Source: Bacteroidota bacterium (GTDB taxonomy: Bacteria > Bacteroidota > Rhodothermia > Rhodothermales > JABDKH01). From it: a stretch of 37,579 nucleotides of DNA. Shown in pieces: positions 2,361-31,845 of this stretch. The stretch spans positions 1 to 37,579 of the forward strand of contig JAGQWL010000015.1 of NCBI GenBank assembly GCA_020437385.1. Reading direction: 5' to 3'. The notes beneath the pieces are model-generated. The model was given only the letters and a program-made list of their open reading frames with translations, was not told the origin of the DNA and did not search any database. Numbering within the stretch: position 1 is the first letter of the stretch; each line of letters starts with the position of its first letter. The position numbers were made by a program, and so were the translations under genes.

Positions 2361-4472
2361 ATGATTGACTCGCTTGACGACCTGCGAAGCGCTCGCATGG
2401 TCTATCGAAATGGTGAACTTTTTAATCCGCCGGCGCTTACCAATTTCGTTGGCTCGCTGCAGGCGGCCTATTGTGTGACGGGCGTCCAGCACCTCACGTT
2501 TCCCCCGTTTTCCCACGGCGATGCCGTTCTGGGCGGCCTGACCGTCAACAATGTTTGCATTCGCACGTGTGGACTGCCGATTTCCTACGTATGGAGACCG
2601 GACCGGATCACCCGATCGGTTGATGTTGGTGCGCTCGAGATCAAGAGCACCACGGTGATGGGCGTGATGTCGCAGAGTTGCGCCGTCAGGATCGAGATAG
2701 AGAATACGGCTGACGAAAGTGTCGACGTCAACGTTCGGCTGCAGGTCGGTACCGGTGTTACGAAGAGCAGCACCGGCTGGAAAACTCCGTATTCGCCAAA
2801 GGAGGGAGGTCGCATTTCTGTAACCCCGTGGGAGGGGACGCCCCCCGCCGAATCGCTTGTCGAGAACCGGGTGACGCCTCTTGAGAGCGGTGATGGGTTG
2901 CTTCTTGCCTCAAGCCTCTCCGAGGCGTTCGCGTTGCAGGGGACAAGTACGCCGCCCGACCGCATCGACCGGTCGTTTCTGGATTTTTCCTTTGCGTTGA
3001 GTCCAGGAGAGAAGAGGCGGCTCCACTACTTTGTGGGCATCGATTCAGACGTTGACGCTCTTCAGCGGCAATTTGCTGAGTGGAAAGAAGCGCCTGATCG
3101 GTGCATCGCTGCCGCTGAGGCCGACTGGGTTGAGGAGATCCGCTCCGTCTTTGAACCGGGAAACAAACGCTACTCTGGCCATCTGCCCCGGCTTCGAACC
3201 TCGAATCGCGATCTCGCACGAATTTACCTTAACAGCATCCTCGGTGTTGTCTACCACAAGCGGCTAACTTCTCATTCGGCCTATGGTCGCACGTACGTTA
3301 CGCTCATGCCGCGATACTGGGTTACGACCAGTTTCATAAATGACTGGTCGATGAGTGCGTGGTTGCTTGCCATGCTGGATCCGGAGTGCCTTCGGGATCA
3401 CATTGAGATGTGGCTCAGGCGGGATCTTTACAGCCACTTCGGCACCGAGTACGTATCAGGCGACAATGCCGGGAACTGGTACTCCTGCAATGACTTCGCC
3501 ATGCTTCGTTTGATCTCCGCCTACGTTCGGGTGACGGGCGACCGGCGGTGGCTACGCAGCAAAGTGGGCGGGCAGTCGATTCTCGATCATTGTGTTTCCC
3601 TTGCAATGCACTATCGAGACCTGGACAAAGGTAGCGGGCTGGCTGACTATGGGGACCGCAACAGTTTGCTGGAAGCAGTGGGCAGTTACACGAACGAGGT
3701 CGCGTCCCTGAATGCGGCCAATGTCTGGAATCTTCGCGAAGTTGCGCGAATGCTGGAGTCGGAATCGCGCGTCGCCGAGGCGGAGTCCATGAAGACTGAG
3801 GCCGACAAACTAGCAGTCGCAGTCAACAAGCTCTATCGCGAGGGCACTGGCTACTTTGCGGTTCGCCGCCCTGATGGAGAAGAGGTGCCGGTTCGGCACG
3901 CGTGGGACTTTGTTCATGTGTCGAACTTCATGGCCCGCGACCTGCCGAGCAAACAGGTGGAAGAGATGATGGCGTTCTTCACGGCTGAGCTTCTTTCGCC
4001 GTCCTGGATGGCCGCCTTGTCTCCGCTTGATGAGGATATCGACTTCTCAGTTCGCCCGGACCACGAGTGGAACGGATCGTGGCCCGGCTGGGTAGCGCTT
4101 GCTGCCTGCTCACTCGTTGTGCATGGTCGACTCGAGTTGCTCGAGCAATGGCTGCCTGGTCTGGCCCGGTCCGCAAATCAAGGTCCGTTCTCGCAGGCGC
4201 ACTTTGTTGAATCGTATGCAAGGCCCATTGAAGGCGGAGCACGCAAGGCTCCAACAGAATGGCCTTTCATAACAGACTGGGCGACCGTCTGCGTTGGTGG
4301 CTTCTTCGAACTGGTCTTGCTCGCACTGTTTGGAGTGGACGCAGGGTACGAGGCGATCGAGGCGAGGCCACGTATCGCCGCGATCGACGCCGACGCGCGT
4401 CTGGAGGGTATCCGCGCAAGCGGTCGAACCGTGGACATCGGCGCGGACGGCCGGATTCAGGCACGCGAATGA
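2361..4472 (+). CDS. Six-hairpin (alpha/alpha)6-barrel glycosidase-like protein
   Basis: About 703 residues from the ATG at 2361 (MIDSLDDLRSARMVY). The open frame extends upstream to 2133, but that part overlaps the preceding gene and has no protein-like character. There is no signal peptide, so it is predicted cytoplasmic. The N-terminal ~270 residues look like a beta-sandwich domain. From about residue 290 there is helical sequence with aromatic and acidic motifs typical of six-hairpin glycosidases (WVTTSFINDWSMSAW, LADYGDRNSLLE, HEWNGSWPGW, then a short C-terminal beta domain). By family knowledge this fold is shared by GH15, GH37, GH63, GH94 and GH116-type enzymes; I cannot assign the family or name the catalytic acids. 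Its stop overlaps the methyltransferase start by 4 bp (ATGA), which implies translational coupling. The substrate is probably an imported oligosaccharide, which is an inference. Confidence 0.7.
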   Translation: MIDSLDDLRSARMVYRNGELFNPPALTNFVGSLQAAYCVTGVQHLTFPPFSHGDAVLGGLTVNNVCIRTCGLPISYVWRPDRITRSVDVGALEIKSTTVMGVMSQSCAVRIEIENTADESVDVNVRLQVGTGVTKSSTGWKTPYSPKEGGRISVTPWEGTPPAESLVENRVTPLESGDGLLLASSLSEAFALQGTSTPPDRIDRSFLDFSFALSPGEKRRLHYFVGIDSDVDALQRQFAEWKEAPDRCIAAAEADWVEEIRSVFEPGNKRYSGHLPRLRTSNRDLARIYLNSILGVVYHKRLTSHSAYGRTYVTLMPRYWVTTSFINDWSMSAWLLAMLDPECLRDHIEMWLRRDLYSHFGTEYVSGDNAGNWYSCNDFAMLRLISAYVRVTGDRRWLRSKVGGQSILDHCVSLAMHYRDLDKGSGLADYGDRNSLLEAVGSYTNEVASLNAANVWNLREVARMLESESRVAEAESMKTEADKLAVAVNKLYREGTGYFAVRRPDGEEVPVRHAWDFVHVSNFMARDLPSKQVEEMMAFFTAELLSPSWMAALSPLDEDIDFSVRPDHEWNGSWPGWVALAACSLVVHGRLELLEQWLPGLARSANQGPFSQAHFVESYARPIEGGARKAPTEWPFITDWATVCVGGFFELVLLALFGVDAGYEAIEARPRIAAIDADARLEGIRASGRTVDIGADGRIQARE

Positions 4473-5308
4473 TCGATCTGTCGACGACCGAACCGTGGGA
4501 CACTGTCGCGTCCGGCTTCGATGAATTCCTGCGGCCCGCTTTCGCGTCTTACGCCAGCCATGCGATCAACCTGTCGGGCTTAGTAGGCGGTGACCGGGTC
4601 CTTGACATTGCGACTGGACCGGGTACGCTCGCGCTCCAGGTTGCGTCCAGCGCGTCGTTTGTGTCGGCCCTCGACTTCTCACCGCTGATGCTTGAGAGGC
4701 TTCGGCGGAATCTTCAAGATGCGGCAGTAGGCAATGTCGAAGTTGTTCTCGGCGACGCCCAGGCTCTTCCATTCGCGGACTGCTCGTTCGACTACGCCTT
4801 CTCGATGTTCGGGCTGATGTTCTGTCCGGATCGTGCGGCAGCGTTTCGGGAAATGAGGCGCGTGTTACGGCCAGGAGGAACGGGTGTTGTAACCAGTTGG
4901 ACAAAGCGAACACAGATTCCGCTGATGGACCTGATCGCCAGGGTGGTTTCGGCCCGCAATCCGCTTGTGCGTGATGGCAGCGGCGAGTCCAACGTTCCGA
5001 CGCTTCCGCTGGAGAACCCGAATGAGCTCAGGCGTGAAATGATCGAAGGCGGTTTCCGGGATGTATCAGTCAGTCAGGCCTCGTTCGAGTTCAGCTATCC
5101 AGATGTCGCTACCTATTGGAAAGCGAATCTCGTATGCAGCGCGCCGCTTTCGGTGGTCAAGCGTGCGATCCTCGGGGAGTCATCGCTCGGGCAGGCGGCC
5201 TGGCAGGCGTTTGTTGCCGAGGTCGAGTCAGATCTCGTCGCTGAATTGGGGGCAAGTCCCATTCGCTACCGCTGGTCGGCGAACTTCGCCCGGGCCGAGG
5301 CCTCTTGA
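4469..5308 (+). CDS. Class I SAM-dependent methyltransferase
   Basis: 279 residues starting MIDLSTTEPWDTVASGF. The ATG at 4469 overlaps the upstream stop (ATGA); longer in-frame extensions run back to 4259 inside the previous gene and are rejected. Motif I of the Rossmann methyltransferase fold is clear near residue 46 (VLDIATGPGTLALQ), followed by a motif II-like acidic position (SALDFSPLMLERLR), a motif of the form VVLGDAQALPFADCSFD and a post-motif strand MRRVLRPGGTGVVTSW. This is the arrangement of UbiE/Methyltransf_11-type enzymes that methylate small molecules. The acceptor cannot be told from sequence. The gene ends 36 bp from the end of the convergent PKS gene. It could tailor that product, but its coupling to the glycosidase gene argues equally for a role with that operon. 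Confidence 0.8.
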   Translation: MIDLSTTEPWDTVASGFDEFLRPAFASYASHAINLSGLVGGDRVLDIATGPGTLALQVASSASFVSALDFSPLMLERLRRNLQDAAVGNVEVVLGDAQALPFADCSFDYAFSMFGLMFCPDRAAAFREMRRVLRPGGTGVVTSWTKRTQIPLMDLIARVVSARNPLVRDGSGESNVPTLPLENPNELRREMIEGGFRDVSVSQASFEFSYPDVATYWKANLVCSAPLSVVKRAILGESSLGQAAWQAFVAEVESDLVAELGASPIRYRWSANFARAEAS

Positions 5309-5344: not shown

Positions 5345-8300
5345 CTAGCGCACGCCGGCGTCATCCGACATTTCCTCGGCTCGAGACGCCATCCGATCCG
5401 ACTTCAACCCGGCACCTCGGCCGGCACCGTCCCCGGTGCTGCCGACCATCCCGGTCAGGCGATCCACCGCTTCGTTGAAATGTTCGACAAGCTTGATCAC
5501 ATGTGGTTCACGGAACAGCGTGTCGTGATCACCGGGTGACGTGATCACCTCAAGGTGGGGGATCCACTGGGCCCAGCCCATATCAGGGCCAACATGGCTG
5601 AACTCGGCTTCACGCGTCTCCGCCGTAATCAGGATGACCTTTCCGTCGTACTGCGAGGGTTGATAGCGATCCTGGGCCGCGTGGTAGGCCGAGATCATTT
5701 TAAACTCGCGAAGCTCGATCGGAAGGGGGCGACCAAACTTCGTCAGGAAGTTTGCATACGTCTTCCGAAGGCGGTTTCGTTCGAAGCGATAGCGTCCGAG
5801 GGCATATCGGCCGAGGTACCGCACTGGGCTCTGGCGAAAGTGGGACAGGTGGCGCGATACCTTGCTCTCGCCCGGTCTCTGCGGCGCCTTGGGGAGCGTC
5901 GGACAAAACGTGTCAAGCATCACCACGGCCCGAACTTGTTTGTTTCTCGCGCGGAGTCTCTTCGCCATCTCAAAGGCAACCACGCCGCCTCCGCTGTATC
6001 CGCCGATCAGGTACGGCCCATCGGGATCGTGGCTGACGACGGCGTCCACATAATCTTCTGCCATTTCTTCGATCGTAGCGGCAGGCTCCTGGATGCCGTC
6101 GACGCCACGCGCCTGCAATCCGAAAAAGGGCTGGTCAGGTCCAAGAAGACGCGAGAGTGAAGTGAAGTTGAGGACGTTTCCGCCTGCGCCGTGGACGCAA
6201 TAGAACGGCATTCTCGTACCGCTTTCTCGGATGGGCACGAGCGGTGTCCATCCGGAGCGGCGCGGGGCCAATGCATTCCCTTCAACCGATTGACTGCCGT
6301 TGGATGCTTCTGACGGACCTTCAGACGAATGCTGTTGCGGCTCCGGCAGGCCGAGTTCCGAGCGGATGAGTGCGGCACACTTCTCGATGGTCGGGGCCTG
6401 AAAGAGGGTTGCCAACGACAGGTCGACACCATGATCCCTCCGGATCCTGGTGAACAGACGAACGGCTATTAGCGAGTGACCGCCGAGGTCGAAGAAGTCA
6501 TCCTTGATTCCGATTTCGGTCACGCCCAATAGCGAAGCCCAGAGATCAACGAGAGATCGCTCGATTGCGTCCCGCGGCCCGATGCGCTTCTCTGCGGACA
6601 CGGTCGGGCTCGACTCGCTGGCCGGCCTTTCATTCCTTGTAGACCGCTCGACTGCGGATTGCACGTCCGACCAGCGAATCGACGAGACAATCGGAGCGGG
6701 TGTATCGAGCGACAAACATCGCTCAAGGGCGATGAGGCCTTCTTCGGGTTCGATTCCAAATCGCGCACCGAGGTCCAGCAACGACATCTGGCCGAGCGAG
6801 GCTTCTGCATCTCCAAGTGCGCGTGCAACTTCCGCCGCGTCTACTCGCTTCATCGCGAACCCGTCGATCGCCGCCACGACGGTTCCATCCTCGGAGACGA
6901 GTCGGTAGTCGATGGTCACGAAGTCAGGGTGTGCGTGTTCTTCCGTCGCGAGCCGTGCATGAGAGAGGAAGCGGGGGGGCAGCGTCCCGAAGGTTCGGAT
7001 CTCACGGTACGTAATTGGAACGTAGAGGTCTTCGTGGGACTCGTATCCGCTATCAAGCGGCAACGCAAAACCTGTGGCTATGTCCAGAAGCGCGGGATGC
7101 AGACCGAATTCGAGAGTCTCCTTGCGATAACTATCCGGGAGTTCAACAACCGCTTCTGCCCGGCCCGAACCATAGCGCGAGGATTCCAGACAGTGCCAGC
7201 GGGGTCCGAAGTCAAGCCAACGCTCCTGTTTTGATTTTTCGTCAGAGGCCGGTCGACGAAGATCCTGCTCGTAACGGTCCGCGAAATCCTCGTCTGGAGG
7301 CCCTTCAAGTGGCCCTGCCGAAGCAAACGCGTGGTCCACACGAAGCCCATCCTGTTCGGACGTGACGACGACATCGTAGTTTCCATTCCTGGTGCCCGTC
7401 ACCTCAACGCCGACGTTTACAGTCACGCCATCCGGAACGGACAACGTTTCAGCGAACACAAGGTCCGTGATTCGGCAGTTATTGCGTCCGGTTTCCAACT
7501 GGATCGCACTGCGAACCAGTTCGACGATGAGCGTACCGGGCGCAAGCGCCTGTCCCGTCCAGAGGCGGTGCTCATTGACAAACCAGTGGTCGGCCGTGCT
7601 GAGGCGAATTTGATAAATCGAACCGCTGCCCTTACGAAGCACGGAGCTGAAGACGTGGCTGTCCAACGATTCCGCTTCATCCGGCGTCGAGTCAGCGTCG
7701 GGTCGGGACGTCATGCCGAGATTTCGCCACATACCCCAGCGGATTGCGCGAACTGCTGTTACACCATCGCCGACGGACGCAGCAAGCGAATCCATAAAAG
7801 AATTCGCGCTGACATAATCGACCTGGCCGGCTGCCGCAATCACGGCACTCGTCGACGAGAAAAGCTCGACAAATCGCGCACCAGAACTTTTGGCGGCATC
7901 GATGACAGCGAGTGCACCTGCCGTCTTCGGCGCGAGAACGGATCGTGCAGCTCCGGCTGTCTTCGCGAGTGCGGGGCCGTCGTCAAGAAGACCGGCGGCG
8001 TGCAGCACGCCGTCAATCTCTCCAAACGTATCCACGATGCCGTTGAACGCTCGTCGAATGGCGTCGCGGTCGGTCACATCGGCTGCGACATAATCAACAT
8101 CAATCGAGCGCGACAGCGCGGCCATTCGCGCCACCTTTTGCTCGACGTCGGCTCCAAGATCGGATTTGTCACGACGAGCGGCCCATACAGATTTGTCGGG
8201 GAGTGGCGTACGACCAACGAGGACAATCCGGGCTCCGTACTTTTGTCCAATCAAATCGGCCAATGCCGTCGAGATGCCGCCTGCCCCACCCGTGATGACA

Positions 8301-11300
8301 TACGTCGCGCCTTTTCGAAATGACGCCGTATCGTGCGCCAATGGTGTCGCACGCTTCTCCACATTCGCAGTCAGATACCTTCCCGAGCGAACGGCAACGG
8401 TCTGCGCGGCGGGACCCCGTTTCAGGAGCGTCACCAGGGCCGCGATTGATTCTTTGGAGCGGTCACCAACGTCCACGTGACTGAATTCCATCGCCGGGAC
8501 CTCCTTGCCAATAACGCCGCAAGGACCCGCCACGAGATTCCCAGCCGGGTTGGAGACGGGATCCTTCGCCGACGTCGATAGCGATGATTCGCTCAGCGCA
8601 TAGACGCGTATGCTCTCGAGGTCAACCTCGACGGCCGCCTGAGCGAGCCACAAAAGCGAAAAGAAGTTGCGATCGATCGCGGCGTCCAACGAGTGCGAAT
8701 CGTCGGTAGGCCAGAGATTCAGGATGTCGGTCGGCTGCTGCCCGATCGATACCAGATGACTGAGGAGCTTGAAGTAGTCCTCCTTTTCTCCCGGGCGAAT
8801 GCGAGATTCCATGTCACCGAATGCCGGTTCCTCAGCCTGCCGCACGACGTGGACCGATGTCCCAGCGCCGCTGAGCGGACTGTCAACCGGTTCCTGGAGT
8901 GACTCGAGCAGCCCATCGGGTGCGGCGTTCGCGAACACCAGCCAGCGCCGGGCGCCATAGACCCTTTCGACCGGGGGGGTCATCGGCCGCCATTGAATCT
9001 CGTGGATCCAGTCATCGACATTCGAACTCTTCACAGGTTCGTGAGGAGCTGCCGCATCGTTATCGTCCGGCGCGGGCGAAGACTGTCCCTTGCCGGGTTC
9101 GATCCAGTAGCGGCTTCTTTCGAAAGGGTACGTTGGCAGCGGAATTCTGCGAGAGTATTCGTCGTTAAGCAGGTTGCCCCATTCCGGTGTCGCGCCGGCT
9201 CCCCAGATTGCACCGACAGCCTCGAAGAAGACGGCGTCGTCATCGGCGACATCCTTGGGGTGTCGCATCGTTGTGACGGCCGCCGGCGAGTCCTGCGTGC
9301 GATGCATATCTGCAAGCGTAGCAAGTGTTCGGCCTGGACCGACTTCGATGAGGATCGGATTCGCTGATTCCAGCAACGTGGCAATGCCGTCGCTGAAGCG
9401 TACCGTTTCGCGGATGTGTCGCGTCCAGTATTCGGGTGACATCGCTTCATCCGCCGTGATCCACGTGCCGGTAACGTTCGAGATGAACGGAATACCCGGT
9501 TCCGAGAACTGGATGTTGGAAACAAACTCGTGAAAGGCGTCAAGGATCGACTCGACCATTGCCGAGTGGGCGGCAACATCAATTCGGACTCGCTGGAAGT
9601 CGATGTCTGCATCGGTCAACGATTGCTCGAGGCGCTCGATCGATGCAACCGGGCCTGCAACGACGTTCAGCGTCGGTGCATTCTGGGCAGCGATACTCAG
9701 TTCTTCTCCGGTGTATCGGAGCACGGTCTCGCGATCTGCAAATACGCTCAGCATCGCGCCCGCATCAAGCGTTTCGAACAGACGTCCACGGGTGTACACG
9801 AGGGAAAGGGCATCTTCCAGCGAGAAGACTCCTGAAAGACAGGCAGCGACATACTCGCCCATGCTGTGACCTGTCATTCCATCCGGACGGATTCCCAGGG
9901 ACATCAGGAGACGGGCCGCGGCGAATTCCACGGAAAAGAGGGCGGGCAGCGACAGGAGGGGTGCCTGAAGGGGCTCAGCCGAATCCGTGTTCGCGTCCGG
10001 AACCAGGATCGGTTTCAGGTCGACGCCGTGCGCCTGCTTCATGTGCGCAATGCAACGGTCAATCGTGTTGCGGTACACCTCGTGTGCGCGGTAGAGTCCG
10101 GCGCCCATCTGCCGATGCTGTGCACCGCCGCCGGCAAACATAAAGATGCGGGTCGGTGAGTCGCCGGCCTTGCGAATACGAGAGCGATCGATGGATGACA
10201 GAGCGTCGATCACCTCATCGATCGTCTTTCCGCTTACCGCAGTACGGAAGTCATACGCTCGCCGGCCACGAGCCATCGTGTAGGCGACGTCGTCAAGATC
10301 GGCTTCCGGATTGGCAACCAGGTGGTCGCGCAGTCTTGCAGCGGCCGCGAGGACAGCCGATTCACTTCGGGCGGACAGCGGCACGAGGACGCGCTTCTGC
10401 GTTTTCGGCTCACGCGTGACGGACGGTGCTTGTTCGAGGATGACGTGCGCGTTCGTGCCGCCGACACCGAGCGAACTGACTCCTGCCCGCCGGATGCCGC
10501 CGGGAGGTGTCCACTTGACCAGTCTGTTGTTGACAAAGAAGGGGGAGTTCTCGATTCCCAGCTTTGGGTTCGGCTCGTTGTAATGGAGCGTTGGGGGAAT
10601 CTCGGCGTGTGAGATGGCGAGAGACGCTTTGATCAAACTCGCGACGCCTGCAGCCGTGTCAAGGTGGCCGATATTGGTCTTGACTGAGCCGAGGGCGCAA
10701 TACCCACGCTTGTCGTTTGCGCTGCCGTATGCCTGGGTCAGCGCGGCCAGTTCGATCGGATCTCCAACGGGTGTTCCGGTTCCGTGCGCTTCGACGTATG
10801 TGACCGACGCCGGATCAACTTCCGCTATTTCAATTGCCTCGGCGATGGCTTGTGCCTGCCCGTCCACGCTGGGGGCGAGATAGCTCACCTTGACCGAGCC
10901 ATCGTTGTTCACAGCCGAGCCACGAACAATTGAATGGATCGTGTCACGGTCGCGAATGGCATCGTCAAGACGCTTCAGGACGACGAGGCCCACGCCGCTG
11001 CCGAAGACGGTACCCTCGGCATCGGCATCGAAGGCTCGACAGTGCCCATCCGGCGAAAGAATCTCGCCGTCCTGGTAGAGGTAGCCTTTCTGCTGATCGA
11101 TCTGGATCGTAACGCCGCCGGCCAACGCCATATCGCACTCTCCGCTGAGCAGGTGCTGAGACGCCAGGTGCACTGCAACGAGTGAGGTGGAGCACGCGGT
11201 CTGAACGTTGATGCTTGGACCCTTGAGGTTAAACAGGTAAGAAGCCCGCGTCGTCAGAAAGTCCTTGTCGTTCCCCGTGTGTCGAACGAGGAACTCGCCG

Positions 11301-11746
11301 ACCGAGTGCATCAGTTCCGGGTTCGTGACGAGATTGTACATCATGTACGCCGTCATCCCGGAGCCCGCGAAGACGCCGATCGAGCCGTCGAACTGGGCCG
11401 GATCGTATCCTGCGTGTTCGAGTGCTTCCCAGCAGCATTCAAGGAAGAAGCGATGCTGGGGGTCCATTATGGCCGCTTCGCGCGGAGAGAACCCGAAAAA
11501 GCCTGCATCGAAATACTCGATGTCGTCGAGTACACCGTTAGCCGGAACGTAATTCGGATCGCGAATCAGCTTCTCCGGGACTCCGTTGCCGCGAAGCTCC
11601 TGCTCCGAAAAGAACCGGATCGATTCGATTCCGTCACGAAGATTCGCCCAGTAATCGTCTACAGACGAGGCACCGGGAAAGCGGCACGCCATGCCAACGA
11701 TGGCGATCTCACTTCCGTTGTAGACGATATCCTTATCCATGTCCAA
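5345..11746 (-). CDS. Type I polyketide synthase module KS-AT-KR-DH-ACP-TE
   Basis: 2133 residues, 10 bp downstream of the NRPS gene. KS about 10-440 has a full triad (Cys185 in TACSTS, His321 in EAHGTGT, His361 in KTNIGH). AT about 535-830 has Ser628 in GHSMGE; its specificity motif reads VAAHS near 724-728, neither the malonyl HAFH nor the methylmalonyl YASH form. The post-AT linker PTYPFERSRYW ends near 881. KR about 1145-1345 has TGGAGGIS, an LDD motif (B-type), Lys1274, Ser1298/Ser1300, Tyr1311 and Asn1315. DH about 1375-1640 lies after the KR, with His1393 and Asp1555 in HPALLD. The carrier about 1722-1800 has Ser1758 in LGGHSL. TE about 1835-2095 has Ser1918 in GYSGGG, Asp1945 and His2074. 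The enzyme should add one malonyl-derived unit to the aminoacyl chain from the NRPS, reduce it, dehydrate it and release it as acid or lactam. Finished by its own TE, it is probably the last module. Confidence 0.93.
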   Translation of the reverse strand: MDMDKDIVYNGSEIAIVGMACRFPGASSVDDYWANLRDGIESIRFFSEQELRGNGVPEKLIRDPNYVPANGVLDDIEYFDAGFFGFSPREAAIMDPQHRFFLECCWEALEHAGYDPAQFDGSIGVFAGSGMTAYMMYNLVTNPELMHSVGEFLVRHTGNDKDFLTTRASYLFNLKGPSINVQTACSTSLVAVHLASQHLLSGECDMALAGGVTIQIDQQKGYLYQDGEILSPDGHCRAFDADAEGTVFGSGVGLVVLKRLDDAIRDRDTIHSIVRGSAVNNDGSVKVSYLAPSVDGQAQAIAEAIEIAEVDPASVTYVEAHGTGTPVGDPIELAALTQAYGSANDKRGYCALGSVKTNIGHLDTAAGVASLIKASLAISHAEIPPTLHYNEPNPKLGIENSPFFVNNRLVKWTPPGGIRRAGVSSLGVGGTNAHVILEQAPSVTREPKTQKRVLVPLSARSESAVLAAAARLRDHLVANPEADLDDVAYTMARGRRAYDFRTAVSGKTIDEVIDALSSIDRSRIRKAGDSPTRIFMFAGGGAQHRQMGAGLYRAHEVYRNTIDRCIAHMKQAHGVDLKPILVPDANTDSAEPLQAPLLSLPALFSVEFAAARLLMSLGIRPDGMTGHSMGEYVAACLSGVFSLEDALSLVYTRGRLFETLDAGAMLSVFADRETVLRYTGEELSIAAQNAPTLNVVAGPVASIERLEQSLTDADIDFQRVRIDVAAHSAMVESILDAFHEFVSNIQFSEPGIPFISNVTGTWITADEAMSPEYWTRHIRETVRFSDGIATLLESANPILIEVGPGRTLATLADMHRTQDSPAAVTTMRHPKDVADDDAVFFEAVGAIWGAGATPEWGNLLNDEYSRRIPLPTYPFERSRYWIEPGKGQSSPAPDDNDAAAPHEPVKSSNVDDWIHEIQWRPMTPPVERVYGARRWLVFANAAPDGLLESLQEPVDSPLSGAGTSVHVVRQAEEPAFGDMESRIRPGEKEDYFKLLSHLVSIGQQPTDILNLWPTDDSHSLDAAIDRNFFSLLWLAQAAVEVDLESIRVYALSESSLSTSAKDPVSNPAGNLVAGPCGVIGKEVPAMEFSHVDVGDRSKESIAALVTLLKRGPAAQTVAVRSGRYLTANVEKRATPLAHDTASFRKGATYVITGGAGGISTALADLIGQKYGARIVLVGRTPLPDKSVWAARRDKSDLGADVEQKVARMAALSRSIDVDYVAADVTDRDAIRRAFNGIVDTFGEIDGVLHAAGLLDDGPALAKTAGAARSVLAPKTAGALAVIDAAKSSGARFVELFSSTSAVIAAAGQVDYVSANSFMDSLAASVGDGVTAVRAIRWGMWRNLGMTSRPDADSTPDEAESLDSHVFSSVLRKGSGSIYQIRLSTADHWFVNEHRLWTGQALAPGTLIVELVRSAIQLETGRNNCRITDLVFAETLSVPDGVTVNVGVEVTGTRNGNYDVVVTSEQDGLRVDHAFASAGPLEGPPDEDFADRYEQDLRRPASDEKSKQERWLDFGPRWHCLESSRYGSGRAEAVVELPDSYRKETLEFGLHPALLDIATGFALPLDSGYESHEDLYVPITYREIRTFGTLPPRFLSHARLATEEHAHPDFVTIDYRLVSEDGTVVAAIDGFAMKRVDAAEVARALGDAEASLGQMSLLDLGARFGIEPEEGLIALERCLSLDTPAPIVSSIRWSDVQSAVERSTRNERPASESSPTVSAEKRIGPRDAIERSLVDLWASLLGVTEIGIKDDFFDLGGHSLIAVRLFTRIRRDHGVDLSLATLFQAPTIEKCAALIRSELGLPEPQQHSSEGPSEASNGSQSVEGNALAPRRSGWTPLVPIRESGTRMPFYCVHGAGGNVLNFTSLSRLLGPDQPFFGLQARGVDGIQEPAATIEEMAEDYVDAVVSHDPDGPYLIGGYSGGGVVAFEMAKRLRARNKQVRAVVMLDTFCPTLPKAPQRPGESKVSRHLSHFRQSPVRYLGRYALGRYRFERNRLRKTYANFLTKFGRPLPIELREFKMISAYHAAQDRYQPSQYDGKVILITAETREAEFSHVGPDMGWAQWIPHLEVITSPGDHDTLFREPHVIKLVEHFNEAVDRLTGMVGSTGDGAGRGAGLKSDRMASRAEEMSDDAGVR

Positions 11747-11756
11747 CGCTTCGTGC

Positions 11757-14700
11757 CTAACGTCCTCTCCGGTTCATGGCAGCCCGTCTTGCCTCTGCCC
11801 TGGATGATCCGCGGGCGACGGCTGAGTTCTCCTCGGATTCGCCGTTTCCGGCCAGATGTGCCGCGAAGGTACGGATCGTCGGATACCTGAAAAGATCGAT
11901 CAGCGAAAGCGTTTGACCAAGTACCTCGCTGAGCCTCGCGTTGACCTGCACAGCAAGGAGGGAGTGTCCACCGATGTCGAAGAAGTTGTCAGTGACTCCA
12001 ACCGAGTCTGCTTCGAGTACGTCCTTCCAAACGCCCGCAATCGTCGTCTCCAGGTCGCTCTCGGGGGCAACGGTCGCTGCCGGTTTCGCTTCCGTGGTTC
12101 TGCTCTTGGGCGTCTGTTTCGCCAACGCATTCCGGTCCAGTTTGCCATTCGGCGTACGGGGGAATGATGCGAGGACGACGAATTGAGACGGAACCATGTA
12201 TGGAGGGAGCTGTCGGTCCAGCCGCTGCCGTGCCGCACTCTGTTCGAACGAGCCGTCCGCCGTTTCGACCACGTACGCTACGATGACCGGGTCCGTAGTT
12301 CGTCGTTCGACGACCACTGCCGTCTCGGCAACGCTATCCAACTGTCGCAGCGCCTTTTCGATTTCGTCCAACTCGATTCTGTAGCCGCGCACTTTGACCT
12401 GATGGTCATTGCGGCCGAGGAACTGAAGCAGTCCGTCCTCGGTGAACCGGCAGAGGTCGCCGGTACGATACATTCTTCCACCACGCGGACTGAACGGATC
12501 TGGTACAAAGCGCTCGTCGGTCAAGTCCGACCGATTCAGGTAGCCGGCTGTAACGCCGTCGCCGCCGATGAAAAGTTCACCCGTGACGCCGGTCGGAACC
12601 GGCGATCCGTCGAGACCGAGGACATAGACGGTGTTATTGGCCAGTGGACGGCCGATGGGCATCGAGCGTTCCGAGCCGGTCACCTCATAGGATGTCGACC
12701 AGACCGTCGTTTCCGTCGGACCATACATGTTCGTAACGGTTCCGGGCGCGAGTTCCTTGATCTGCCGCGCGAGGTCGGTGTCGAGCGCCTCTCCGCCAAC
12801 AAGGAAGTGCTGCAGCCTGCCCAACACTTCGCGGCCTTCCGGATCTGCGACAAGCATTCGAGCCATGGAAGGTGTGCACTGAAGATGTGTAACGCCCTCC
12901 CGGATCGCCAGCTCATACATCGAGATGGCGGATTCGGCTTCCGCCGCCGTTCGACCCACGACAAACGGTGCGGATGAACCGCCGTAGCCGTCCCCGCCCG
13001 TCACTGGCGCCGTGACTGGAGCCGTAGTTACCGGATTGCTTTCCTTCAAGAGGCGCGCAAGTTCGGGAAGGCTGCTCAGTACGAGTTCCGTATCGACGCC
13101 GAAGTCGACAAGACACCCGATTTCATCAACGCCAATCTCTTTCAATCGATCAACGAACGGCGCACACGTTTCCACCGATCCAAACAGACCGCTGGACTCG
13201 AAGTATCGTTCAAACGCGTAGTCCAGAATCGCATCGCGATCACCGTCCGACAAGTGCTCCATCGAGAAGCGGCCTTCGTTCGTCATCGTCATTTCCTTGA
13301 ATGTCGGAAACGTCCATGCCGCCTCTTTGACGAGGTTCATTGCCGTACCCAGGTACGCCTTCATTGCGTCGCGCACAATCTCGCGAACCGAGTCCACCGA
13401 ATCGCCGATGAACGTGTGAAGCATGAGGGTGATCTTGCCGCCCGAAAGCCCCTTCGCCTTCTGCGTATCGCGGTAGAGCGCGATCTTCTCCGCAAGTTCC
13501 TCGACCGACTGCCCAAGCAAATGCGTGAGAACATTGTAGCCGTTCTCGGCACCAAGTCGGAATGTTTCAGGGTTGCCGGCTGCCGTTATCCATACCGGCA
13601 GTTCCTGCTGCACAGGTCGCGGCAGCGTGCGGACGGAGACGTTCTTACCGTCTGCCTTCGGAAACTCAACGGCCTCGCCCCTCCACAAGCGCTGAACGAC
13701 CTCGATCTGCTCGAACATGATCTCCTTGCGTCGCTCCCAGTTCGCCGGCTGCAGAAGGAAGTCGTTGGGCTGCCATCCGGCGGCGAACGAGATGTCCACC
13801 CGGCCCCCTGAAAGGTTGTCAACCATGGCCCATTCTTCGGCCATGCGCACTGGATGGTGCAGCGGCGAGACGAGGCTGCCCGCACGAAGTCTCACGTTAG
13901 ACGAAATCGTTGCGAGAGCGGCGTTTGTGACTGCTGAATTTGGATAGAGCCCTCCGAAAGAGTGGAAATGCCGTTCCGGTGACCAGATGGCCACGAACCC
14001 GTGCTCATCTGCAAAGCGGGTCGACTCAAGCAGCAGGCGATACTGATCTCGCTGTCCATGCAGCTCCGAACTGGAGGCGGCAAAGAAGAAGAGGCTGAAG
14101 TCGATCGGCTGCTCCCGATGCGGGAGCGACGAATCCTCTCGCGTTGGCTTGACCGGGGAACCGAGAACCACCTTGTACCCGCGTGTAAGCGTCCAGAGCA
14201 ACTCCAATACACTGATGTCGAACGACAGGCTGGTCACGGCGAGCCACGTCCCACCGTCAGGTCGAAGCACTTCGTCCATCGCCACAAAAAAGTTGGCGAC
14301 GTTTCGATGCCGAACCATCACGCCCTTCGGCGCGCCGGTCGATCCGGAGGTGTGAATGACATACGCGAGATCGTCTTTGTCGGTCGCCGGTTCTTCATAC
14401 GTGGCCGGCAGATTCCAGTCTACTTCATCGAGGACCAGCGGCTCCCGGCTCTGATCGCTGAAGAGACCCCGGTAGCGGCGCAGACACAGGAGATCGGCAA
14501 CCGCTGCATCCTCCGAAATAAAATGGAGGCGCTCACGCGGAAAATCCGGGTCCAGCGGCACGTAAGCGGCGCCCGTCTTCAGAATGCCCAGCACGCCGAC
14601 GATCAGATGCGACGACCGATCCGAGCAGATGCCGACTCTGTCACCACGCTTGACGCCGCGTTTTCGAAGCAGATGCGACAGCAGCGTGGATCGCCTGTCG

Positions 14701-16460
14701 AGCTCGGAATACGTGAGACGCTCACGTTGTGTGACGATCGCAAGTTCGTCTGGCGCGCGCTCAGCAGCCGTCCTGAACTGACGGTGGATGGATGCGGGTT
14801 CATAGGAAACAGAGGTCCTGTTCCATGTTTCCACGATCTGCTTGTAGGTGTCGCGATCAAGAAGCCCGATGCTGCCAAACTTCTGCTCCGGATTCCGCGC
14901 CGCATACGTGCTGAAGTGACGGAACTGGGACACGAGTCGTGCTCGCGCATCCGTATCCAGTAGATCAGCGCGCATGACAAACCAGATGCGCCCGTCTTTC
15001 GAGACTGTCACAGCGAGAACGGCTGAGCGCGATGGCTGAGCCGCGTCTTCGGCAAATGAAAGCTCTACCGTTTCGAAGGGCTCGGCCTCGCGGAGTCGCG
15101 GATACCGCAGAAGCAGATCGCCTGAATGGCCGGCAAACGTCTGGTAGTGCGAGAGACGCTTCGTGGCCCTGCCGATCAATTCTCCGACGCTCGTTTCAGC
15201 GCTCCCGAAATCAAAGCGTGCCAGCGACGATGCCCGGTATAAACCGGCCATTTCGTCCTCCGGTGGTGAAGCGGCGATCCGTAGGTCCACCCGAGCCTGA
15301 TTACACAGCTTTGCAAGAAAGGCGGCCACGACGGCCGCAGACGAAACGGCCGGCGATACTTTTCGACCAGTCGGTACGTCCGCAGGGAGGAGTTCAACCG
15401 TATCGACGGCAACCTGCCCGGCCGACACCCTGGCCTCTGCATAGGGAACGATTGCTGGTTGCGGGTCAAGTAAGGCACGAACCATCCCGTGGTCGTGACG
15501 AGCGGCAGTCGTATCAATTTGGGCGAGTCGCTCGACATCCGGCACTGCGAACGCTTTTAGCTGATCCCCTGGAAACAGGGCCATCGACAGATCGGCAGCC
15601 TGCGGAACGTCATCGCCAATGCTGTGCAAGCTGCTGAGTCGGACGTCGTTGGAGGACGTTCCGACGACGACTGAATTCTTGTCTACCGACACAACGTGAC
15701 CGGCCTTGCCGGCGGATCCCGCGAGGACCTCAGCCTTTCCAACTGAGACGAAGCCCCCCGGCACTTTCATCTTTGCCGTCGCGACAGGGTTGTCATATGT
15801 ACCAAAATCCAGGCTGCGAACCAGTCGCGCGATCGAATCCGCGTCCTGTTCAAAGTCTATCACGCCGCCATGAGGGGGCCGATGGTACCTGCCAAAATAC
15901 TGGCCTGGGCCTGTTTGTTCGCGCCCGGCAAGACGCCGTTCCTCCAGCATTTCCAACAGTCGGCCGAAAGACGAGATACCGGCTTCGTAGCACTTCGTGT
16001 TGAGCGAAAAGGCCGTCTCGCCATCCGCGACCGAGATTTCCTCTTCAACGAGTACATCCCCTTCGTCAACCGCCGCCTTCATGAGATGCCACGAAACCGC
16101 GTGTCGACTGACCCCGTCTGCAAGGGCCCAGGTCGTTACGTTGAGGCCGGCATAATCCGGCAGGGGGCCGTCGTGAAAATTGATGGCCGCCACCCGAGGA
16201 AGGGATAACGCCTCCTCGGCGATGATACTCAGATTGGTGATACTCAGAAGATAATCGAAAGGGGTTGCCGCCAGGACTAGCGCGTAAGGGACATCCGAGT
16301 CGATAACCTTGAGCGATTGAGACTCGGCCCAATCTCGAATTCGCGGGGCATTCGATACGACTCCCAGGATCTCATGTCCGGCAGACATGATCGATCCCGC
16401 ACACTGAATCAGCAGCGATTCACTGCCGATGAGGTAACAAGAAAATTTGCTGTTTTCCAT
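11757..16460 (-). CDS. NRPS loading module: formyltransferase - partial C - A(Gly, with embedded monooxygenase) - PCP
   Basis: 1567 residues from ATG 16460. Formyltransferase domain about 1-200 has the catalytic trio Asn94, His96 and Asp132 (NFHDGPLPDYAG, VDEGDVL), with its small C-terminal subdomain to about 300. Residues about 340-545 resemble only the C-terminal lobe of a condensation domain, ending in the usual C-A linker (IVETWNRTSVSYEP); no HHxxxDG motif is present. The adenylation domain starts near 555: A3 HTSGSTGAPKGV, A4 SFDIS at 746-750. A luciferase-like flavin monooxygenase (about 785-1140; WSPERHFHSFGG, SFAAGWQPNDF) is inserted, then A5 MYGPTETTVW at 1245, A7 YRTGDL, A8 and A10 Lys1440. 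The ten-residue pocket read by eye is D-I-L-Q-L-G-M-V-W-K, close to known glycine codes. The PCP Ser is 1500 (IGGHSL). It should load glycine, formylate it and possibly oxidise it before transfer to the PKS. Confidence 0.92.
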   Translation of the reverse strand: MENSKFSCYLIGSESLLIQCAGSIMSAGHEILGVVSNAPRIRDWAESQSLKVIDSDVPYALVLAATPFDYLLSITNLSIIAEEALSLPRVAAINFHDGPLPDYAGLNVTTWALADGVSRHAVSWHLMKAAVDEGDVLVEEEISVADGETAFSLNTKCYEAGISSFGRLLEMLEERRLAGREQTGPGQYFGRYHRPPHGGVIDFEQDADSIARLVRSLDFGTYDNPVATAKMKVPGGFVSVGKAEVLAGSAGKAGHVVSVDKNSVVVGTSSNDVRLSSLHSIGDDVPQAADLSMALFPGDQLKAFAVPDVERLAQIDTTAARHDHGMVRALLDPQPAIVPYAEARVSAGQVAVDTVELLPADVPTGRKVSPAVSSAAVVAAFLAKLCNQARVDLRIAASPPEDEMAGLYRASSLARFDFGSAETSVGELIGRATKRLSHYQTFAGHSGDLLLRYPRLREAEPFETVELSFAEDAAQPSRSAVLAVTVSKDGRIWFVMRADLLDTDARARLVSQFRHFSTYAARNPEQKFGSIGLLDRDTYKQIVETWNRTSVSYEPASIHRQFRTAAERAPDELAIVTQRERLTYSELDRRSTLLSHLLRKRGVKRGDRVGICSDRSSHLIVGVLGILKTGAAYVPLDPDFPRERLHFISEDAAVADLLCLRRYRGLFSDQSREPLVLDEVDWNLPATYEEPATDKDDLAYVIHTSGSTGAPKGVMVRHRNVANFFVAMDEVLRPDGGTWLAVTSLSFDISVLELLWTLTRGYKVVLGSPVKPTREDSSLPHREQPIDFSLFFFAASSSELHGQRDQYRLLLESTRFADEHGFVAIWSPERHFHSFGGLYPNSAVTNAALATISSNVRLRAGSLVSPLHHPVRMAEEWAMVDNLSGGRVDISFAAGWQPNDFLLQPANWERRKEIMFEQIEVVQRLWRGEAVEFPKADGKNVSVRTLPRPVQQELPVWITAAGNPETFRLGAENGYNVLTHLLGQSVEELAEKIALYRDTQKAKGLSGGKITLMLHTFIGDSVDSVREIVRDAMKAYLGTAMNLVKEAAWTFPTFKEMTMTNEGRFSMEHLSDGDRDAILDYAFERYFESSGLFGSVETCAPFVDRLKEIGVDEIGCLVDFGVDTELVLSSLPELARLLKESNPVTTAPVTAPVTGGDGYGGSSAPFVVGRTAAEAESAISMYELAIREGVTHLQCTPSMARMLVADPEGREVLGRLQHFLVGGEALDTDLARQIKELAPGTVTNMYGPTETTVWSTSYEVTGSERSMPIGRPLANNTVYVLGLDGSPVPTGVTGELFIGGDGVTAGYLNRSDLTDERFVPDPFSPRGGRMYRTGDLCRFTEDGLLQFLGRNDHQVKVRGYRIELDEIEKALRQLDSVAETAVVVERRTTDPVIVAYVVETADGSFEQSAARQRLDRQLPPYMVPSQFVVLASFPRTPNGKLDRNALAKQTPKSRTTEAKPAATVAPESDLETTIAGVWKDVLEADSVGVTDNFFDIGGHSLLAVQVNARLSEVLGQTLSLIDLFRYPTIRTFAAHLAGNGESEENSAVARGSSRAEARRAAMNRRGR

Positions 16461-16753: not shown

Positions 16754-18985
16754 TTACCGTTTCCGCACGCTCGCAATAATGGTCGCATAGCCATCAATCT
16801 CGAAATGCTCGATACGGATTGTGTGACTGCCCGTGGCACGGAATGGCACCACAGCCGTTCGCGGCGCGTGATAGGTCCAATCGTCGTGGACAAGATCCTG
16901 GTCGATCCAGACACGTACACCATCATCGCTCGTGATCTCGAGATCGTAGTTGCCCGGTGAAAGCCGGACCGTACCCGTCGAGACGGTTGCAAATCGGTCC
17001 GCCCGAACGCCGGCGATCGGGCTTCGATACCACTGATAGGCCAGGGAGTTTGTACTGTCAACGGCGATGGGGTCGCCGGAAACAAGCTGTTCGAACGCAC
17101 TGATTTGCGTTCGCGGGTCAGTTTCGTCATCCCATTCGTAAAACCGAACCGTCCAGCGGATTGGCGCGAAGAAGTAGCGGTACGAAAATCCGACGGCATC
17201 ACCGGCCGGCTTGGGCGTGCCGAACCGATCAGTCGTCGCCGCTCCATGGTACTCGGCATCGATGCGAACGTCGACGGCGGCTGTCGGATCGAGCCAGATC
17301 GTCAGCGTATCGCCAATCGAACCCCCGCTTTCCGACACGGAATCGATTCCCGATGTGTCGAGGATTCTAAAGGTGCCCGGCGGTCCATAGGTCTCAAGAT
17401 GCTGAACTGGAGCGGTTCGACTGGAGCGTGGCCAGAAAACGGGGGATCGGAAGTCGTACGGCCCCCACTCATCGATCATCATGTAGCGACGACCCTGGGG
17501 TAGCGTCGACGGGATGACGGGCCGATCAAGGCGATTCCAACGGCGCGGCGCATAGGAGGTCCAGTCAGACGTCGCTGGATCAAGCCGCTCGGTCGTGTTT
17601 CCCGATCCGGCAGGAAGTCCGACAACCGGAATTGAATCCGAAGGCGCCAGCCCGGAAAATGAATTCAGATCAAACCGTCCGGTACTCCCGCGCAGCACGA
17701 GGCTGTCGACGACGCCTTCAAACAGATTTTGGGTGACGACGACTTCGTCCGTGTCCGTTATTTCAAGTGGGCGTGGCACACTCTCAAATGTGTTTCCCGC
17801 GATGCGGAAGTCGCGGCTATCGACGTCGCGGGCCTGGGCATAGCCCCAATCGGCCGGCTGTGACGACCGTTCCCAAAGTCGAATCCCGATGTCGCCATGG
17901 GTGAACCGGTTGCCGGTAATCGTTATTTCCTGCCCGTGCTCGATTGCAATATGCTCTCCATTGTCTGCGAACGTATTACCGACGACCCGGGTGTCGAACG
18001 AATAGCCGCCCCAGATCCCGTGCCAGCAACCTCGAATTGTATTGCCGACTACCGTATTGCGGCTGAAGGTGATTTCGATTCCATTGGTGGGAGCAAATGA
18101 AAAATCGTTCCCATAGATCAGGTTGTCGTTGCAGCCTCCAGCACCCGAATCCATAGTCGATTGTCCGGCCCAGAGAAACAGTCCATCTCCCGAATGGGTC
18201 GCCGAGTTGGATGCGATGACGTTTCTGCTTGACTGTTCATAAAGAAGAATCGCGGCAGAGTCCTGCCCACGAAAGTAAAAGCCCTCGCTGTGGCCCCGAA
18301 CGTTCCAGTCAAGCCGATTGTGTTGAATGACATTCTCGGAACTGCGGTACATACCAATTCCGATGCCTGAGTTGAATGTTATGTCGTTGGCGACAACGAT
18401 CGCGTGATTGACGTCAGTGAGCATCAGTCCGTTCTGGCCTCCCGTGACCGTAACGCTGTCAATCTGGATGTTGTCCGAATCCCGAATGTAGACCGCGGCT
18501 CCGTATCGCATCCATTCATCGTGCTCGTTCTGGTGGTAGCTCATCCAGTCGTCTATGTGCTCACGCTCGATCGTACTCTTCAACTTCTGCCGATAGTTGT
18601 AACTGAGGTCGCTCTTTGAGACATGAAGTCCGTCGCTCTGCGTGGCCCAGATTCCGATTCGGTAGCCACGCACCACGGCATTAACGATTGTCACGTTTGA
18701 ACCAGATATCCGGATGCCGGTACCGGAAAAGGTGTCGGGTTGTCCGGGAGTCGCAGTGCCAATAAGGGTAGCTCCACCGAAGTCGACCGTTATGTCTGAA
18801 CCGCGAACTACTATCGCGCCCATACTGTCTGATTCGATGTAGTACGTGTCAGGAGCGATTCGTACGGATTCCGAAATAACGAGACCTCGTTCCAGTCGGA
18901 TTGGCACCTGGGCAAGTGTTTGAGACGCATGCACAAACACGCAGAGCAGGAGCGCTGTATACAGCTGGGGAGTGGTGTTCCGCAT
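16754..18985 (-). CDS. Exported right-handed parallel beta-helix protein with C-terminal PA14-like domain
   Basis: About 743 residues from the ATG near 18985, chosen because it starts a Sec signal peptide (MRNTTPQLYTALLLCVFV, cleavage after LAQ). The longer frame back to 19210 overlaps the upstream gene. Residues about 70-430 carry many PbH1-type repeats with an N-x-(I/V)-x-x-N-x pattern (NVTIVNAVVRGYRIGIW, NVIQHNRLDWN, NLIYGNDFSF, NTVVGNTIRG), typical of NosD-like and carbohydrate-active beta-helices. The last ~120 residues match a PA14-like carbohydrate-binding beta-barrel (YDLEITSDDGVRVWIDQ). It is probably a secreted polysaccharide-binding or -cleaving protein; no catalytic residues can be assigned. 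The start lies 8 bp from the stop of the upstream membrane-protein gene, so the two are probably co-translated. Confidence 0.8.
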   Translation of the reverse strand: MRNTTPQLYTALLLCVFVHASQTLAQVPIRLERGLVISESVRIAPDTYYIESDSMGAIVVRGSDITVDFGGATLIGTATPGQPDTFSGTGIRISGSNVTIVNAVVRGYRIGIWATQSDGLHVSKSDLSYNYRQKLKSTIEREHIDDWMSYHQNEHDEWMRYGAAVYIRDSDNIQIDSVTVTGGQNGLMLTDVNHAIVVANDITFNSGIGIGMYRSSENVIQHNRLDWNVRGHSEGFYFRGQDSAAILLYEQSSRNVIASNSATHSGDGLFLWAGQSTMDSGAGGCNDNLIYGNDFSFAPTNGIEITFSRNTVVGNTIRGCWHGIWGGYSFDTRVVGNTFADNGEHIAIEHGQEITITGNRFTHGDIGIRLWERSSQPADWGYAQARDVDSRDFRIAGNTFESVPRPLEITDTDEVVVTQNLFEGVVDSLVLRGSTGRFDLNSFSGLAPSDSIPVVGLPAGSGNTTERLDPATSDWTSYAPRRWNRLDRPVIPSTLPQGRRYMMIDEWGPYDFRSPVFWPRSSRTAPVQHLETYGPPGTFRILDTSGIDSVSESGGSIGDTLTIWLDPTAAVDVRIDAEYHGAATTDRFGTPKPAGDAVGFSYRYFFAPIRWTVRFYEWDDETDPRTQISAFEQLVSGDPIAVDSTNSLAYQWYRSPIAGVRADRFATVSTGTVRLSPGNYDLEITSDDGVRVWIDQDLVHDDWTYHAPRTAVVPFRATGSHTIRIEHFEIDGYATIIASVRKR

Positions 18986-18993
18986 CGTTGCCC

Positions 18994-19410
18994 TCAGTCC
19001 GACGGATTTCTTGAGCTCCGCGTCGTTCGACGTTCCAACAGTTCGCGGATCGCAATCGAAGTCAGCAGTCCCGCGCACGCGATCGCAACGGCCGCAGTCC
19101 GGGCCTCTAGGTGGGCCCGACAGTAGAAAAGCAAGATCAGGAAGACCGACAACCAGACGCCGAAGCGTCCCAGTAGATTGCTGGCCGGCAGCCGGCGTCG
19201 CGCAATCCACAGGTTTGCGAAAGTCGTCAGCGCAGCGAAGAGGAAGAAGAAATTCTGCCAGAAGAAGCCGCGAGCCGGATCGTTGACCCGGTACGGGTCG
19301 AAGAGAGCGCTGTTACGCAGCGTCTCAAAAACGCCAAGATAAACCGCAACCTGTAGCAGTGACCAACCGACTGCGCTTGCCAGTGACCTCAGAGCAGATT
19401 GCTTCGCCAT
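18994..19410 (-). CDS. Small integral membrane protein, unknown function
   Basis: 138 residues starting MAKQSALRSLASAVGW. Four hydrophobic segments are visible: about 13-30 (WSLLQVAVYLGVF), 49-68 (FFWQNFFFLFAALTTFANLW), 83-98 (FGVWLSVFLILLFYC) and 104-122 (AAVAIACAGLLTSIAI). The tail is basic, and Arg-rich loops suggest the usual positive-inside topology. I do not recognise a family. It lies 24 bp from the LVIVD-repeat gene and immediately upstream of the beta-helix gene in the same direction. That position suggests a role in export or anchoring of the beta-helix product, which is inference from context only. Confidence 0.65.
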   Translation of the reverse strand: MAKQSALRSLASAVGWSLLQVAVYLGVFETLRNSALFDPYRVNDPARGFFWQNFFFLFAALTTFANLWIARRRLPASNLLGRFGVWLSVFLILLFYCRAHLEARTAAVAIACAGLLTSIAIRELLERRTTRSSRNPSD

Positions 19411-22580: not shown

Positions 22581-22582
22581 TG

Positions 22583-26569: not shown

Positions 26570-26697
26570 GGCCGCGCAGGGACCCGATTCGCAATCATAC
26601 TGTCAAATTCGTTAAGCGCGGAAGTTTCCCATGCCGCGTTGTAAACGAAAACCATCCTTTCGCTGTCCATCATATCAGAACGCGAAACTGACAGTTG

Positions 26698-27261
26698 ATG
26701 ACTGACGACACGGCCGGCGGTGAAGGAGCCGGTGGGCAGTCCTTTCGGGAGTTTGTCGAAGCAAACCAACGATGGGTCTACTACCTCGCACTCGACCTGC
26801 ACGGAAATCATCATGATGCGGAGGACCTCTCGCAAGAAGTCTTCATCCGGGCGCATACCGGTCTGGAATCATTCCGGGGCGATGCGTCCGTGCGAACGTG
26901 GCTGCGTCGAATTGCTATCAACCTCTTTCTGAATTCGCGTCGGAAGAAGGCGGTTCGCTTCATGAGCTTCTTCGAGAACGACGAGGATCAGGATGTCGCT
27001 TCAGTTGCTCACCTACCGGATTCGAGTGCTGAGGCCGCTGAAATTCGTCGCAACGTCGACGAAGCCCTGAAGCGCCTGTCACCTGCTGAAAGGAGCGCAT
27101 TCGTGCTGCGACATCTGCAGGACTTGACTGTGAGTGAAGTCGCTGTCACAATGGAAGTAGCAGACGGGACCGTCAAGAGCCTCTTACATCGGGCGACCCG
27201 GAAGATGCAGAAAGCACTTGCTGTGTATTCGACAACTGCGAGCCGAACAACGGTGAACTGA
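26698..27261 (+). CDS. ECF-type RNA polymerase sigma factor
   Basis: 187 residues from the ATG at 26698 (an in-frame TTG lies one codon upstream). Region 2 is visible at about 15-90 (FVEANQRWVYYLALDLHGN, DAEDLSQEVFIRAH, RTWLRRIAINLFLN), including the core-binding DAEDLSQEVF motif. Region 4 is at about 120-175 (LKRLSPAERSAFVLRHLQD, LTVSEVAVTMEVADGTVKS, LLHRATRKMQ), the helix-turn-helix for the -35 element. The short linker between them confirms group 4 (ECF). The stop abuts the start of the anti-sigma gene, so the pair is co-translated. It is first in an operon with four exported HEAT-repeat genes and probably controls them and itself. Confidence 0.95.
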   Translation: MTDDTAGGEGAGGQSFREFVEANQRWVYYLALDLHGNHHDAEDLSQEVFIRAHTGLESFRGDASVRTWLRRIAINLFLNSRRKKAVRFMSFFENDEDQDVASVAHLPDSSAEAAEIRRNVDEALKRLSPAERSAFVLRHLQDLTVSEVAVTMEVADGTVKSLLHRATRKMQKALAVYSTTASRTTVN

Positions 27262-28110: not shown

Positions 28111-28122
28111 ACGAAGGAAAAA

Positions 28123-29880: not shown

Positions 29881-29909
29881 TACCATCATCACCCTTTTCG
29901 AGGCGAATC

Positions 29910-30572: not shown

Positions 30573-30626
30573 TAATCGGCGTCGCTCCACGTCTGAAACG
30601 ATCTACTCCATCTAACCAACAGTAGA

Positions 30627-31826: not shown

Positions 31827-31845
31827 GCCGACTACGACAGACTAG

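Follow-up and report, generated by a model that had tools for sequence, protein, structure and literature searches.

Several described assembly lines share parts of their design with the locus analysed here. In conglobatin and oxazolomycin biosynthesis, the loading proteins CongA and OzmO combine a formyltransferase (FT), a glycine adenylation (A) domain and a PCP and hand over to a PKS, but they lack a luciferase-like monooxygenase (LLM), are followed by many further modules and involve oxazole formation with CongE/OzmP (PMC4504003). LgrA of linear gramicidin likewise starts with FT-A-PCP, has no LLM, and feeds further NRPS modules rather than a PKS. Luciferase-like monooxygenases inserted into glycine adenylation domains are found in MtaG and MelG of the myxothiazol and melithiazol pathways, where this MOx is reported to hydroxylate C-alpha, with the amine lost and glyoxylate staying on the carrier (PMC11342130); these are, however, terminal chain-release modules. 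In puwainaphycin biosynthesis, PuwE has an oxygenase that acts on a carrier-bound acyl group; it is located between PKS and NRPS modules, next to an aminotransferase and not inside an A domain, and together with the aminotransferase is predicted to give a 3-amino-2-hydroxy acyl chain (PMC4219810). A formylating glycine start, a glycine-embedded LLM and a single PKS module are each already known; in the open literature we found no characterised system combining the three. Limited full-text searches for NRPSs with both FT and LLM, and for NRPS-PKS genes in capsule loci, gave no relevant papers; for the polysaccharide association described below, this is only weak evidence that it has not been reported. 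Althiomycin was considered as the closest precedent and rejected, its Serratia loader having neither a formyltransferase nor an embedded LLM, with N-oxidation in trans by Alb2. In the literature examined, no FT or LLM is mentioned for chalkophomycin, and the role of the LLM of fabrubactin, a lead from the name Atu3671, is not described.

The window, that is, the whole 37.6-kb stretch of DNA analysed, is an entire contig (C23) of a genome of 488 contigs that is 93.7% complete. It encodes two adjacent proteins with the following parts.

11757-16460 (-): NRPS loading protein FT-C(lobe)-A[LLM]-PCP, 1567 aa (ORF, Pfam/NCBIfam)
15561..16460 (-): formyltransferase (FT), residues 1-300 (Pfam PF00551/PF02911)
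14793..15548 (-): C-terminal lobe of a condensation domain, residues about 305-556 (hhalign, AF2, Foldseek)
14145..14777 (-): adenylation domain, N-terminal part, residues 562-772, motifs A3-A4 (Pfam PF00501)
13050..14099 (-): embedded FMN-dependent luciferase-like monooxygenase (LLM), residues 788-1137 (TIGR04020)
12141..12929 (-): adenylation domain, C-terminal part, residues about 1178-1440 (glycine code DILQLGMVWK)
11853..12044 (-): PCP, residues 1473-1536, Ser1500 (PF00550)
5345-11746 (-): PKS KS-AT-KR-DH-ACP-TE, 2133 aa (ORF, Pfam/NCBIfam)
10427..11710 (-): ketosynthase (KS), residues 13-440, C185/H321/H361 (Pfam match 13-389)
9314..10147 (-): acyltransferase (AT), residues 534-811, S628/H727 (GHSMGE, VAAH)
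7724..8308 (-): ketoreductase (KR), residues 1147-1341, LDD type, S1298/Y1311 (Pfam, alignment)
6827..7630 (-): dehydratase (DH), residues 1373-1640, H1393 in H(x)4G(x)4P, D1555 (Pfam, alignment)
6365..6556 (-): carrier domain (ACP), residues 1731-1794, Ser1758 (PP-binding, alignment)
5507..6205 (-): thioesterase (TE), residues about 1848-2080, S1918/D1945/H2074 (Pfam match 1848-1977, alignment)

The NRPS gene is transcribed first and the PKS gene follows after a gap of 10 bp. The original prediction of a two-protein NRPS-PKS line had the ORF coordinates exactly, and its domain strings are borne out by Pfam and NCBIfam; the main catalytic residues, which it described as intact, are all present, and in alignments the active-site residues of both proteins are nearly all invariant among relatives. 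Unrelated genomes carry this pair as well, conserved at about 40-46% identity, which makes it more than a chance juxtaposition; with the full domain string in both proteins and the genes adjacent, the window carries a genuine copy of this widespread pair.

The NRPS as a whole finds its top solved relative in the LgrA initiation module. Formyl_trans_N/C matches span residues 69-282, the triad N94/H96/D132 is invariant in 77 aligned sequences, the FT that bears it in the window protein is fused to A-PCP, and the best solved relatives of the domain are GDP-perosamine N-formyltransferase, ArnA, Fmt and LgrA; the formylating start proposed earlier thus gains from the conserved triad, and N-formylation is predicted. 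The glycine-like A domain was also read correctly: by alignment, the window has the specificity code DILQLGMVWK, in line with the pattern DILQxGM[IV]WK common to 77/77 sequences (two truncated ones lacking the last residue), and the Streptomyces FT-A-PCP loaders L048 and L065 share this pattern. The region between the FT and the A domain, previously called a partial C domain, has no Pfam match, but profile-profile comparison of the 77 sequences with hhalign aligns it only with the C-terminal half of condensation domains (probability 81.5), and an AF2 model built from 37 sequences (pLDDT 89) matches solved NRPS condensation domains in Foldseek (best E 1.5e-11, probability 1.00). Going by this model, the C-terminal lobe is real and the catalytic half of the domain is absent, an arrangement that fits a loading module.

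The LLM, which splits the A domain after motif A4, matches the TIGR04020 model of the MupA/Atu3671 family with 479 bits (cutoff 244.45) over model positions 1-340 of 341, and its nearest solved relative is PuwE (6ket, E 3.2e-105). The earlier analogy with OzmO and conglobatin holds for the FT, the glycine A domain, the PCP and the hand-over to a PKS, but leaves out the LLM. An oxazole starter of the conglobatin/oxazolomycin kind would account for the succession of FT, glycine A domain, PCP and KS; yet the window differs from CongA/OzmO in having an LLM and a C lobe and in ending with a TE behind a single extension module, there is no cyclodehydratase gene between or beside the NRPS and PKS genes (PMC4504003), and no CongE/OzmP-type gene lies between the two or has a candidate among the scanned window ORFs. 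We consider such a starter highly improbable.

A second possibility follows from the resemblance to MtaG and MelG. Hydroxylated formylglycyl-S-PCP could fall apart into formamide and glyoxylyl-S-PCP, which the PKS would convert into nitrogen-free 4-oxocrotonate (C4H4O3). The insertion of the LLM into a glycine A domain, as in myxothiazol and melithiazol, where N-C cleavage takes place (PMC11342130), and its retention in nearly all members among the best 80 loci speak for this route, whereas it would be wasteful to formylate an amine only to discard it, and the MtaG/MelG cleavage occurs at the end of a chain rather than in a formylated starter with an N-terminal FT and a PKS downstream; overall, we regard it as unlikely.

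In the PKS, the AT signature (GHSMGE, VAAH) does not discriminate between malonyl and methylmalonyl, and KR precedes DH, an order constant in the 55 complete PKSs aligned. This order is unusual for modular cis-AT PKSs and is known from iterative PUFA and enediyne synthases. Together with the polysaccharide context described below, it leaves some room for a single module that is used repeatedly and builds a longer reduced or polyene chain, for example a lipid-like polysaccharide anchor. The nearest solved KS-AT regions, however, come from modular or hybrid assembly lines, one of them (8xjz) solved with a peptide synthetase, and there is no ER domain, so that iteration appears rather improbable to us, even more so than loss of the starter nitrogen.

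Profile searches of the window's own genome, family by family, yielded neither a condensation domain nor another modular KS, and no second adenylation domain for amino acids scored over cutoff. Given this lack of further NRPS/PKS modules, the line is probably self-contained, as judged from the genome sequence, in keeping with the earlier description of one loading and one extending module with its own release by the TE. The absence of an MbtH gene, first noted for the window, extends to the whole of this 93.7% complete genome, and a truncated ORF at the end of another contig (C189) resembles the C-terminus of an Sfp-type PPTase, with a KEA..KG motif read by eye. The statement that the window contains no transporter gene holds only in part, since an HlyD/CusB-type membrane-fusion protein is encoded at 36142-37314 (+), near the contig end and 20 kb from the pair. 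The suggestion that the product might be methylated seems to have been based on a methyltransferase gene at 4259-5308 (+); we rejected it as a tailoring gene, as it is convergent and is not a conserved neighbour of the pair among the relatives examined.

The remaining surroundings of the pair are as follows. A right-handed beta-helix (NosD-like) protein with a C-terminal PA14 domain is encoded on the same strand at 16754-19210 (-), its stop lying 294 bp upstream of the NRPS start; as such folds are common in polysaccharide-active proteins, it may be the only glycan hint in the window. A multi-PAS histidine kinase gene adjoins that of a FIST-domain sensor protein at 20829-23722 (-), and genes for an ECF-type sigma factor, a putative zinc-finger anti-sigma protein and four consecutive HEAT-repeat proteins form one run at 26695-32937 (+). 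A scan for promoters and terminators gave fewer matches than shuffled sequences. The contig carries no glycosyltransferase, flippase or Wzz gene and has zero matches to polysaccharide-class HMMs, and the six initiating sugar transferases of the genome are all located on other contigs.

The pair is not unusual: when species genomes were scanned using the FT alignment, at least 585 matches and at least 539 confirmed relatives were obtained, which reveals a widespread conserved cassette. Among the best 80 loci of these relatives, and within the DNA fetched, the FT-A(LLM) NRPS is present in 74 and the complete pair with the full PKS string in 53; the hosts of the pair belong to the Pseudomonadota (Rhodobacterales for the most part), Chloroflexota and Planctomycetota, and the copies in Myxococcota, Gemmatimonadota and Acidobacteria are incomplete or partial. 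The distribution is patchy, an LLM of the TIGR04020 family over cutoff being rare (3/395) in the genomes sampled from the window's own phylum. Of the two predominant arrangements, the PKS-first one, with a gap of about 1 kb that usually holds a GT2 gene, is the Rhodobacterales type (37 loci), and the NRPS-first one with a short gap is that of the window (14 loci). Within the same family, one relative (G004) carries both genes in full, followed immediately downstream by a PPTase gene; in another (G003) the NRPS is complete and the contig ends within the PKS, and a third (G005) has the start of the NRPS.

Copies of the Rhodobacterales type may have been encountered before. A study of Roseibaca reported an NRPS-like/T1PKS hybrid cluster in 18/37 species, with low MIBiG similarity and treated as unknown, whose core NRPS (4527 nt) and PKS (6333 nt) genes are about 1 kb apart (PMC10584327). 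The gene lengths and spacing of this orphan Rhodobacteraceae cluster fit our Rhodobacterales loci; it was described only as a prediction, with neither domains nor function assigned, whereas the window has the order NRPS-PKS, a 10-bp gap and no conserved neighbours.

Some relatives depart from the common pattern. A Sphingomonas pair (L080:9827-18740), set among glycosyltransferase genes, has neither LLM nor DH and keeps the rest, which suggests that these two steps belong together. Three Chloroflexota loci (L027, L032 and L035) have extra stand-alone A and C-T-TE proteins upstream of the NRPS, which may allow additional extension or conjugation of the chain in these loci. On Bradyrhizobium and Sinorhizobium plasmids (e.g. 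L114:12061-24897), an FT starts large NRPS/PKS genes, this FT region being about 34% identical to the window protein.

The relatives are recurrently embedded in polysaccharide loci. In Rhodobacterales, rhizobia, Burkholderiales, planctomycetes and the three same-family relatives, the pair lies among polysaccharide genes, often with a PPTase gene. In Rhodobacterales the genes usually follow in the order WecG-like, Wzy-like (predicted to have about nine TM segments), PKS, GT2, NRPS, PPTase, two conserved proteins, GT2 and GT4, in some cases with Wzx, and the flanks in G003, G004 and G005 include GT4, Wzz and an initiating sugar transferase. Flanks of the polysaccharide class were also found in Caldimonas, planctomycetes, Porticoccus, an Ignavibacteriaceae genome, sphingomonads, Aureimonas and others. 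Polysaccharide HMMs match 200/641 flanking genes versus 0/303 genes in 20 arbitrary 20-kb regions, these HMMs having been trained on the very flanks that were counted; an independent check is offered by RefSeq-annotated plasmid loci of Parasedimentitalea, Shinella, Aminobacter and Paracoccus, whose flanking genes are named flippase, WecB/TagA/CpsF, polyprenyl glycosylphosphotransferase, O-antigen ligase and export, and six of the seven plasmid loci have at least two HMM matches. At least one match was obtained for 43/45 Rhodobacterales loci, which share a common synteny and count as one lineage, versus 13/35 of the others among the best 80, several of which have a fetched flank below 3 kb, and none for the window. 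The analysis did not confidently identify an acyltransferase that would attach the acid to a sugar. A conserved Rhodobacterales neighbour of 841 aa (L060:16281-18803 and homologues) has no Pfam or NCBIfam match; it contains an N-terminal GHSL motif that recalls SGNH enzymes and a YSNEVWNWQF / YEGGSH region that recalls glycoside hydrolases.

It is against this context that the free small metabolite of the original prediction has to be weighed. Under that explanation, 4-formamidocrotonate or an oxidised or cyclised relative would be secreted as a signal or antimetabolite, and the polysaccharide neighbours would be incidental. The window copy, which has no such neighbours, agrees with it, as do six further loci devoid of polysaccharide genes (L029, L030, L038, L050, L088 and L089) and the fact that a TE by default releases its product as a free acid. 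The association nevertheless appears repeatedly, across independent lineages as well as among the closest relatives, and the Rhodobacterales have placed a GT2 gene inside the pair itself. Moreover, the trees of both proteins group the window copy with the same-family copies that lie in EPS loci, and its lone position is therefore probably derived. The polysaccharide loci around the relatives thus shift the likely role from a free metabolite, which we consider the strongest of the alternatives though still rather unlikely, towards an acyl group on a glycan.

Our preferred reading, held tentatively and a little short of an even chance, is a complete single-extension line for an oxidised formylglycine-derived acid, which in the relatives would most likely serve as a glycan acyl group. 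Glycine would be adenylated, loaded onto the PCP and N-formylated there by the FT domain, as argued by the specificity code, the FT triad and the precedents of LgrA and CongA (PMC4504003). The embedded LLM would then oxidise the alpha-carbon of the formylglycyl group on the carrier; given the MtaG/MelG MOx and PuwE precedents, alpha-hydroxylation of formylglycyl-S-PCP is our best guess. After transfer of the acyl group to the KS, one malonyl-type unit would be added, ketoreduction and dehydration would follow, and the TE would release a small alpha,beta-unsaturated C4-C5 acid, 4-formamido-4-hydroxycrotonate or its collapse product. If the carbinolamide is kept, the product would be 4-formamido-4-hydroxycrotonate (C5H7NO4, 145 Da); collapse of the starter to glyoxylyl would give 4-oxocrotonate (100 Da). 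The plain 4-formamidocrotonate (C5H7NO3, 129 Da) proposed originally would be expected if the LLM is inactive or has another site of action, but the LLM precedents favour a 4-hydroxylated or de-amidated (4-oxo) product. In most relatives, the acid would become an acyl group on a surface glycan, the line acting as a source of acyl donor. Within this scheme, the domains, catalytic residues, glycine code, conservation of the pair, lack of other modules in the genome and polysaccharide surroundings of the relatives are observed; that and when the starter is oxidised, what exactly is released and its use on a glycan are what we infer.

Extended to the family as a whole, this reading is possible but somewhat more doubtful: a widespread group of NRPS-PKS pairs would provide exopolysaccharides and capsules with an alpha-oxidised, unsaturated, formylglycine-derived acyl group in several phyla, in connection with Wzx/Wzy-type synthesis. 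With two proteins, one amino acid, one extension and, in Sphingomonas, a natural variant without LLM and DH, the pair is a minimal system for working out in which order formylation, flavin-dependent alpha-oxidation and KS extension take place. If the link to glycans is true, hundreds of species, Rhodobacterales above all, would build a polysaccharide substituent by NRPS-PKS, and searches for the product in culture extracts would be looking in the wrong place.
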